Source of the DNA: Haloferax larsenii JCM 13917
Lineage (GTDB): Archaea > Halobacteriota > Halobacteria > Halobacteriales > Haloferacaceae
DNA length: 64,000 bases
Assembly: GCF_000336955.1 (NCBI RefSeq)
Contig: NZ_AOLI01000014.1
Coordinates: forward strand, 125,975 to 189,974
Direction: 5' to 3'
Below the pieces are notes generated by a model, which was given only the letters and a program-made list of their open reading frames with translations, was not told the DNA's origin and did no database searches. The position numbers and the translations under genes are program-made. Position 1 is the first letter of the stretch. Every line of letters begins with the position of its first letter. Shown here in pieces: positions 10,254 through 62,592 of the stretch.

Positions 10254-10312
10254 ACCCACCTACCAACCCACCACCTGTCCACCTACCCACCTACTACCAC
10301 CCACCTGCTCAC
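10254..10312. repeat. Low-complexity CCACCTACC-type tract
   Basis: The spacer between the TPP enzyme and the epimerase is built of imperfect CCACC/CTACC units that are almost free of G on the plus strand. The opposite strand therefore carries many GG and GGG runs. No gene is visible in it. Confidence 0.7.
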
Positions 10313-15878: not shown

Positions 15879-16066
15879 CTTTCCTGTCCATTTCAACTCG
15901 CTTTCCCCTCACTCCCCTACCTTCCCCTACCCTCTCGACGCGCCGTTGTCCCACCTCAGCGAGTGTCTTAGGACGCGGTGACGCACGTCGGGCGACCCCA
16001 TCGAAATGCACGGGCGGGGAGCGTGATGGTGAATACCAAGACAGTCGAGTACGAACAGCCCGTACG

Positions 16067-25925: not shown

Positions 25926-26046
25926 CAATCCTAGTGCTGGAATTAGTACCCACAGGTCACATGTTCTACCGTACGACCACTACCGAACTACCATACTACC
26001 GAGAGAATATGCCGGGGGTGTTCCCCCGCACGTGCACGTCTCTCCC

Positions 26047-26704: not shown

Positions 26705-26746
26705 TCGACAGCCAGCGGTTACCACCACTCGACAGCCAGCGGTTAC
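26705..26746. repeat. Direct repeat, two 18-bp copies at 24-bp period
   Basis: TCGACAGCCAGCGGTTAC occurs at 26705-26722 and again at 26729-26746 in the divergent DoxX/cbiP intergenic region. The remainder of this about 285-bp gap contains the DoxX promoter and nothing else I recognise. Confidence 0.75.
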
Positions 26747-26862
26747 TGCCTCACCAACTGCGCGTGTAGGTACCGAGGGTGATCCTCGAAAAACGGCCAA
26801 GACATAGTCAGGCCAATAGAGAGACCGACAAGTTTGAACATCGACACGCCGAGTTACGGTCG

Positions 26863-48958: not shown

Positions 48959-49315
48959 TCAGGCGAGCAGTTTCGAGATGAGAAGGAAGATGCGTTTCAG
49001 GTTCTCGGAGAGTCGCGACTGGCCTTCTGAGTGGAGGACGACGTCGTCTTCGAGCGCGTGAATCTCCAGCGTCCTACCGCGGTCGCTGAGGTCCTTCAGT
49101 TCGAAGCCACGGATGGATTCGAACGGGATGATGAGATACCGAAACTCTTCGTCGCGGATGTCGGCGTTACACTGGTCTCCGTAGACGTGGAGACTCTTCT
49201 GTGTGACGGCGACTTCGTAGCCAATGTAGCTCATTCCGGCAATTTCGGCACCCGCACGGCTACCCTTGACTTTCGCCTTGAGTTGTGAGGAATCGAGAAG
49301 GACTCCGTCTACCAT
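48959..49315 (-). CDS. Hypothetical protein with PH-like character
   Basis: A 118-residue protein. The middle (YEVAVTQKSLHVYGDQCN, EFRYLIIPFESIRGFEL, RTLEIHALEDDVVLHSE) resembles bacterial PH-like or lipid-associated beta domains, with a C-terminal amphipathic helix (RLSENLKRIFLLISKLL). A TATA-like ACATATAGG lies about 30 bp upstream of the ATG. It is divergent from the membrane histidine kinase. No confident family assignment. Confidence 0.68.
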   Translation of the reverse strand: MVDGVLLDSSQLKAKVKGSRAGAEIAGMSYIGYEVAVTQKSLHVYGDQCNADIRDEEFRYLIIPFESIRGFELKDLSDRGRTLEIHALEDDVVLHSEGQSRLSENLKRIFLLISKLLA

Positions 49316-49434: not shown

Positions 49435-50541
49435 ATGCATCGATTCGGCCCATGGGAGCGGCTTGCTGGGACGCTTCTCATCTGCCTGGTGTTCGCGCTC
49501 GGGCAGATGCTTCTCTTCCCAGTCACGTCGCTCAACGTGACGTTACAAACCGTCACCGAGTTTCTGTTTTTGCTGTTCGTCTTTGGACTGCTGGTCGTCC
49601 TCGGCGGCGTCCAGCAACCGAACCGAATCAAGAACTCCTTCGGTATCGGGCTGACCTTACTCGCGCTCCACGGCGTGACGAACGTCCTCGACCAGTTCAT
49701 CTCTCATCCGCCAGAGCTCATCCTCCTCGGAAAGCAGATACCGATGCTCGTGGGGGGCATCACCGTACTCGCGGGGGTCGTACAATGGTCGCAGTTCCGT
49801 GACCAGCGCGAGAAACACTACGAAGAGCGAGGCGAGCGCCTCGTCGAACAGAACGAGCGCCTCGAAACGTTCACGTCCGTCGTCTCTCACGACCTCAGAA
49901 ACCCGATGACTATCGCCCGTGGCCGGGTCGAACTCGCCCGCGAGACCGGCGACGTCGAACATCTCGAACCCGCGACAGATGCACTCGACCGCATGGACGA
50001 GATAATCGACGACGTGCTCTCGTTGGCGCGTCTCGGACCCGACGCTATCGAACCGTCCGAAGTGGCGCTCGACGCCGTGGTCTCGCAAGCCTGGTCGAGC
50101 GTCGGAACCAAAGACGCCACGCTTCACACACCAGCGACACGGTCGACAATCGTCGCCGACGGTCGGTTCCTCCAGGAGGCCTTCGAGAACCTCTTTCGCA
50201 ACGCAATCGAGCATGCGGGGGCGGACGCGACTATCAGGGTCGGGCTACTCGACATGGGATTCTTCGTCGAAGACGACGGCCCGGGTATCCCCGAGTCGAA
50301 GCGTGCAGACGTCTTCTCGCCGGGAGAGTCGTCCACTGGGGGGACGGGACTGGGGTTAGCACTGGTCGACGAAATCGCCGGTGGCCACGGGTGGGACCTC
50401 AGAGTCACGGAAGGCGAGACCGGCGGCGCACGATTCGAATTTTACGGGGTCAACGTCTCTGCGACGGACCCATCTATCGAACGGACGGGGACAGGAGACA
50501 CGTCTGCGACGGAACCGACGAAGCCCGACGTCGCCGATTGA
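49435..50541 (+). CDS. Membrane sensor histidine kinase
   Basis: A 368-residue kinase with about four N-terminal membrane segments (residues 10-117), a short coiled region (EKHYEERGERLVEQNERLE), HisKA with H152 in VVSHDLRNPMTIARG and a HATPase domain with FENLFRNAIEHAG, DDGPGIPES and GGTGLGLALV. All catalytic boxes are present. It has no extracellular sensor domain, so it may sense within the membrane. Its 3' end abuts a 20-bp tandem-repeat array that leads into the convergent DICT-domain gene. Confidence 0.92.
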   Translation: MHRFGPWERLAGTLLICLVFALGQMLLFPVTSLNVTLQTVTEFLFLLFVFGLLVVLGGVQQPNRIKNSFGIGLTLLALHGVTNVLDQFISHPPELILLGKQIPMLVGGITVLAGVVQWSQFRDQREKHYEERGERLVEQNERLETFTSVVSHDLRNPMTIARGRVELARETGDVEHLEPATDALDRMDEIIDDVLSLARLGPDAIEPSEVALDAVVSQAWSSVGTKDATLHTPATRSTIVADGRFLQEAFENLFRNAIEHAGADATIRVGLLDMGFFVEDDGPGIPESKRADVFSPGESSTGGTGLGLALVDEIAGGHGWDLRVTEGETGGARFEFYGVNVSATDPSIERTGTGDTSATEPTKPDVAD

Positions 50542-50640
50542 CGACTCGCGCCAAGTGCTGACGGCTTACGCTAGATACTGACGGCTTACGCTAGATACTG
50601 ACAGCTCACGCTAAATACCGACAACTTACGCCAGATGCCG
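50541..50640. repeat. Five tandem 20-bp repeats
   Basis: Consecutive 20-bp units begin at 50541, 50561, 50581, 50601 and 50621. The second and third are identical (ACGGCTTACGCTAGATACTG) and the others have diverged. The array starts at the last base of the histidine kinase stop and runs into the final codons of the convergent DICT gene. Confidence 0.85.
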
Positions 50641-51390
50641 TGGAAACGGGAGCGGCCTCCGGCGACCAGTGCCGTCGGATTCGATACTCGCGTACGTCGT
50701 CTGGAGGTAGTTGACGAGGTAGTCGACGGTCGATGGGTCGTACGTCCAAAACCCCGTGAATCCAGCTTCGTGGGGGCGTTCTTCGGCGACGAGCGCGCAC
50801 TTGTAGTCGTTGATGCCGTTGCCGTCGTAGACGACGAACCAGGAATTGCGAATTTCCTCTGTGCGAGCGAGGTGCAACTGGAACGAGTCCGCCTGTGGGA
50901 CGCGTTCTGACGGATAGACGTAGGCGTGAACCGATAAGTCGCCGCGGTCCCCAAGCCGTTCGTACGCCGTCTGTTGAGGTCGGAGGTTGTCGCCGGTCTG
51001 GAAGCCACTGTAGAGGTGTCCGGCACCGACACGCCACGCTCTGTCTTCTATCTCGCGCGTCGCAGCGAGCATCTTGTCGCGGTCGTACGAGGTAAACAGT
51101 GTCTCGTCGAGGTGGTCCAACACAGGAGCGTACTGCTGGCGCTCGAATCCCGGTTCGACCTGCTCGGGTGGGTCGAGGAGGTCGTCGACAGCCACCGCCG
51201 TGTGGAACGTATCGTCCGTACTGAGCACGGCGTAGTTCGATGGACCGTGCGGCGAGCACGCGGACGTAACCGAAATGTTGCGGTCCGAAAAGTGTGCAGC
51301 GAGTCGGTCGGTGACGTCACCAACCGGGTTAAACACCGTCAACGTCTTTTCTGACGCGACGACACCGTCGATAAGGTCACCGAGCGACAT
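50626..51390 (-). CDS. DICT sensory domain-containing protein
   Basis: This 254-residue protein begins SLGDLIDGVVASEKTLTVFNP, a DICT-domain start, and continues with YAVLSTDDTFHTAVAVDDLL and WFVVYDGNGINDYKCALVAEER. DICT (diguanylate cyclase and two-component) domains are predicted sensory modules of haloarchaea and cyanobacteria, often encoded beside kinases. It is convergent with the membrane kinase, and its C-terminal codons overlap the tandem repeat array; loss or gain of a repeat could alter its terminus. An AATAAAATG element lies about 35 bp upstream of its ATG. Confidence 0.82.
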   Translation of the reverse strand: MSLGDLIDGVVASEKTLTVFNPVGDVTDRLAAHFSDRNISVTSACSPHGPSNYAVLSTDDTFHTAVAVDDLLDPPEQVEPGFERQQYAPVLDHLDETLFTSYDRDKMLAATREIEDRAWRVGAGHLYSGFQTGDNLRPQQTAYERLGDRGDLSVHAYVYPSERVPQADSFQLHLARTEEIRNSWFVVYDGNGINDYKCALVAEERPHEAGFTGFWTYDPSTVDYLVNYLQTTYASIESDGTGRRRPLPFPRHLA

Positions 51391-62498: not shown

Positions 62499-62530
62499 GG
62501 TATGGGCTTCGAACGCCGTCGTTACTCAGG

Positions 62531-62592
62531 ACACAGTGGTGTTCCGACGAGACGCAGTGGTGTTCCGACGAGACGCAGTGGTGTTCCGACGA
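62531..62592. repeat. Three tandem 21-bp repeats
   Basis: Three near-identical 21-bp units (core CAGTGGTGTTCCGACGA) start at 62531, 62552 and 62573 in the spacer between the nucleotidyltransferase and the NosL-like gene. The period is a multiple of three, so several open frames cross it, but none resembles a known protein. Confidence 0.85.

Follow-up and report, generated by a model that had tools for sequence, protein, structure and literature searches.

The window analysed here is a stretch of 64,000 nucleotides from Haloferax larsenii JCM 13917. Two of its genes, encoding a sensor histidine kinase and a DICT sensory-domain protein, are convergent, and the spacer between them is made up almost entirely of an array of 20-bp units. 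The features of the locus are listed below.

48959..49315, - strand: 118-aa protein of no known family; its gene comes directly after the DICT gene in 13/13 other Haloferax examined
49435..50541, + strand: sensor histidine kinase, 368 aa, HisKA and HATPase_c (Pfam); insertion common to H. elongans
50539..50541, + strand: histidine kinase stop TGA, positions 1-3 of unit W1
50539..50638, no strand: array of five 20-bp units (TRF and unit table)
50539-50558: unit W1
50559-50578: unit W2
50579-50598: unit W3
50599-50618: unit W4
50619-50638: unit W5
50584..50603, no strand: 20 bp missing in H. larsenii NCIM 5678; exact position uncertain by a few bases
50626..50628, - strand: DICT stop TAA (TTA on the + strand), positions 8-10 of W5
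50626..51390, - strand: DICT sensory-domain protein, 254 aa (Pfam; orthologues)

Structure and uniqueness of the array

The sequence-only reading had described a five-unit, 20-bp tandem repeat at 50541-50640, running from the histidine kinase stop through the stop of the DICT gene. Such a repeat is present, although its best frame lies two bases to the left, at 50539-50638, and it does reach from one stop to the other, as the TGA forms the start of W1 and the DICT stop is found inside W5. The array has a TRF score of 109 (period 20, 4.0 copies, 86% matches), which ranks second among the 43 rows obtained for the window. Bases 20 positions apart are identical at 64 of 80 positions in the array; other lags between 10 and 60 stay below 58 matches in every stretch of 80 positions across the window. 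When the window was simulated 100 times with a first-order Markov model, TRF scores peaked at 85, indicating that these head-to-tail units are not a product of chance. Arrays of such score are not rare in the genome, as evidenced by the 31 TRF rows scoring at least 80 in 280 kb of other sequence, many of which are near-exact doublets of 64-112 bp; the finding is in this sense an ordinary one. Units W2 and W3 are identical, and W4, W5 and W1 differ from them at 3, 5 and 7 of the 20 positions, respectively.

The unit is confined to this locus, with no other copy at up to 3 mismatches in the window's genome. Of 170 family genomes, no more than two (G000 and G009, the latter H. elongans) have adjacent unit pairs, and exact unit matches in viral contigs numbered zero. 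A dispersed repeat, a mobile element and a virus-borne repeat were rejected on these counts. Searching a plasmid collection returned one record, plasmid pHl5678-2 of H. larsenii NCIM 5678. Rfam covariance models gave no match at gathering score between positions 49000 and 52000, and a known structured RNA was set aside. No earlier description of this array was found among the open-access papers searched on haloarchaeal tandem repeats, VNTRs, slippage, DICT or convergent genes.

Stop codons occur in all six frames within the 100 bp of the array. Three of the five window units carry both stops together. The forward stop is missing from W5, and the reverse stop is missing from W1 and from unit E2 of H. 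elongans; the stops that are used are intact. Retention of the used stops and loss of some redundant ones fit a situation in which only the outer stops matter, though the numbers are small.

The kinase gene interrupts an otherwise conserved gene order. In all 13 other Haloferax examined (L035-L047), the gene for the 118-aa protein comes right after the DICT gene, with 103-190 nt between the matched parts, and in none of the 13 does a kinase match lie between the two genes. In the window, the same gap measures 1,311 nt and contains the kinase. A kinase orthologue at 95% is present in H. elongans only; the runner-up in a comparison with 167 family genomes is 44% identical. The simplest account of this distribution is that the kinase gene was acquired before H. 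larsenii and H. elongans diverged. The 118-aa protein, the gene for which is kept beside the DICT gene across Haloferax, has no Pfam or NCBIfam match.

Variation of unit number between genomes

Comparing the unit number between strains, as the first reading of the sequence had suggested, revealed that it is not fixed. The array consists of five units in the window, four in H. larsenii NCIM 5678 and three in H. elongans (G009, also L048); these counts rest on assemblies, two of the three array-bearing genomes compared being multi-contig. The spacer between the two stops shortens from 84 nt in the window to 64 nt in NCIM 5678 and 44 nt in H. elongans, the last value being read from the alignment. 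If exactly 20 bp are cut out of the window array so that W3 is joined to W4, which can be done at four adjacent offsets, the result is the NCIM 5678 array letter for letter, chimeric unit included. The reverse does not hold: the window array is not obtained from the NCIM 5678 array by any one exact duplication.

The segment of the window on the side of the array is 99.07% identical to plasmid pHl5678-2 over 33.6 kb, and some parts of contig C14 that lie beyond the window failed to align to the stretches of the plasmid that were compared. Over 63,704 aligned bases, window and plasmid differ by 543 substitutions (0.85%) and 11 indel records; the indel count is exclusive of window stretches 15880-16018 and 26714-26822, which fall outside the alignment blocks, and of BLAST pieces shorter than 1,500 columns. 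Indels of at least 10 nt occur at four places (10292-10299, 25992, 50584 and 62534), all four of which lie inside tandem arrays listed by TRF. Within the aligned blocks, larger indels thus ordinarily take the form of changes in repeat length.

Near-exact two-copy duplications, many of about 90 bp, were noticed elsewhere in the assembly (for instance, L116 10194-10374, L113 15695-15873, L113 18772-18951 and L122 1620-1800), and the L116 duplication coincides exactly with the break of the alignment against the complete plasmid. These doublets are probably artefacts of assembly joins. Since they resemble such joins, the difference in unit number between the two H. larsenii genomes could itself be an assembly error, in which case the array would be real but perhaps stable within the species. 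The genome of the window is a 36-contig draft, exact duplications of about 90 bp are found in contig C14 itself, one of them at the alignment break, and an array lacking 20 bp is also what a collapsed repeat would give in NCIM 5678. The array, however, resembles the doublets neither in size nor in the imperfection of its units, and H. elongans has yet another version, diverged in sequence and three units long. We regard an assembly error as unlikely.

Protein ends, transcript ends and regulator binding

Repeats at contingency loci, the basis of phase variation, have unit lengths that are not multiples of three and change in copy number. The array is similar in both respects, and the sequence-only reading had proposed that gain or loss of a unit would shift the frame past the DICT stop and alter the C-terminus, making the array a candidate phase-variation element. 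A switch at the end of the kinase was considered here as well. In contrast to contingency loci, the variable part of the array lies outside the reading frames, past both stops, and hence makes no switch. As the stops sit at the gene-proximal edges of W1 and W5, units are gained or lost beyond both of them, and the frame beyond the stop is irrelevant because a ribosome translating the DICT gene stops in the first unit that it enters. Consistently, the kinase (368 aa) and the DICT protein (254 aa) have the same ends in the window, in NCIM 5678 and in H. elongans. All 400 single unequal exchanges between equivalent positions were also enumerated in silico (20 ordered unit pairs in 20 phases, many products being alike). 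Both proteins were unchanged in 386 exchanges, and one DICT residue was altered from H to Y in 3. The DICT protein was lengthened to 278 aa in 10 exchanges and the kinase to 399 aa in 1, and all 11 of these protein-extending exchanges involved the loss of four of the five units. Stop positions, the three-genome comparison and the enumeration all contradict phase variation of either gene through single-unit changes, and we give this reading almost no credence.

The other role suggested at the outset, that of a bidirectional terminator, is in keeping with the position of the array, which lies exactly between the convergent genes and fills nearly the whole spacer. The array might, in such a case, form a terminator or 3' UTR element of both transcripts, with the unit number tuning its action. 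According to the part of a study of H. volcanii transcript ends that bears on the subject (PMC7237163), 3' ends feature a T stretch when intergenic and AGATC when in coding regions, and hairpins are found at some; terminators other than T runs are thus on record for H. volcanii. The array, although likewise downstream of genes, differs from the terminators described there in having no T stretch, AGATC or hairpin above background. In the 300 nt that follow each stop, neither strand has a run of four or more T residues. A TTTT is first encountered 806 nt past the kinase stop and 2,657 nt past the DICT stop, and the nearest AGATC is 7,308 nt away on the kinase side and 20,085 nt away on the DICT side. 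Terminator-like sites at the array number 0, against 0.4 expected. Folding of the + strand RNA is weaker than that of shuffled sequences (z 2.1; 199/200 shuffles at least as good), and folding of the - strand RNA is about average (z 0.3). A terminator, which to judge from sequence and predicted folding finds no support here, was set aside as improbable. Alternatively, each unit may bind a regulator, the array being a tandem operator in which the regular spacing of 20 bp places successive sites on nearly the same side of the helix. Against such an arrangement, the array is at gene ends rather than promoters, the unit occurs at a single locus in the genome even at up to 3 mismatches, and units differ from one another at up to 7 of 20 positions; an operator is very improbable.

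A near-neutral minisatellite as the favoured reading

We consider the array, at the junction of two convergent genes, to be a minisatellite: a small variable-number tandem repeat, close to neutral and with hardly any function, if any, in its own right. We put the probability of this reading at roughly 80%. Its history may have begun when an ancestor shared by H. larsenii and H. elongans acquired the kinase gene next to the DICT gene. One edge of that insertion is where the array is found, a position which suggests that the unit originated at the junction itself: a 20-bp junction piece carrying both stops, one per strand and a few bases apart, would have been duplicated in tandem. The DICT genes of some other Haloferax have similar GC-rich letters at their ends, but the likeness is too short to support the idea that the unit derives from the end of an ancestral DICT gene. 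Units would subsequently have been gained and lost through replication slippage or unequal recombination, and ordinary repeat slippage is probably all that the array represents. Each change in copy number would alter only the intergenic spacer and leave the proteins untouched, since both stops are present in most units and translation ends at the outermost ones.

Selection might instead have kept the array as a frame-proof double stop, which would halt readthrough or frameshifted ribosomes before they enter the antisense of the other gene. A unit length of 20 bp, which is indivisible by three, and the presence of both stops in most units would suit the array to this role at a junction that has no T-run terminator. 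This reading is very doubtful; if true, it would bear on how convergent transcripts are handled in dense archaeal genomes.

The minisatellite reading can be set beside known repeats. Like the prokaryotic satellites and VNTRs covered in the relevant part of PMC6749651, the array consists of short, imperfect head-to-tail units at a single locus; variation of the unit number between strains is a feature of the array beside this likeness. The same part of that survey describes short satellites in Halobacteria as mostly coding, with lengths that are multiples of three. Unlike these, the array has a 20-bp unit, is essentially intergenic and contains the stops of both flanking genes. The tandem repeats of archaeal Borgs, as characterized in the pertinent portion of PMC9879509, are likewise fast-evolving direct repeats in archaeal DNA. 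The array differs from them in being single and small, in residing in a Haloferax replicon and in extending no protein.

A tandem repeat with a unit indivisible by three may thus span two stop codons harmlessly, because the stops in use fall in the outermost units. The case calls for caution, as not every such gene-adjacent repeat is a phase-variation switch. The array could also be employed as a strain-typing marker in H. larsenii.

Other tandem repeats of the window vary in length as well. A 21-bp repeat at 62530-62592, present in three copies in the window and in two in NCIM 5678, lies upstream of a sugar nucleotidyltransferase gene; the gene on the other side of the repeat is annotated as NosL in NCIM 5678. 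A change in the copy number of this repeat could touch a promoter. The short-period arrays at 10254-10306 and 25966-26002 are 54 and 22 nt longer, respectively, in NCIM 5678.
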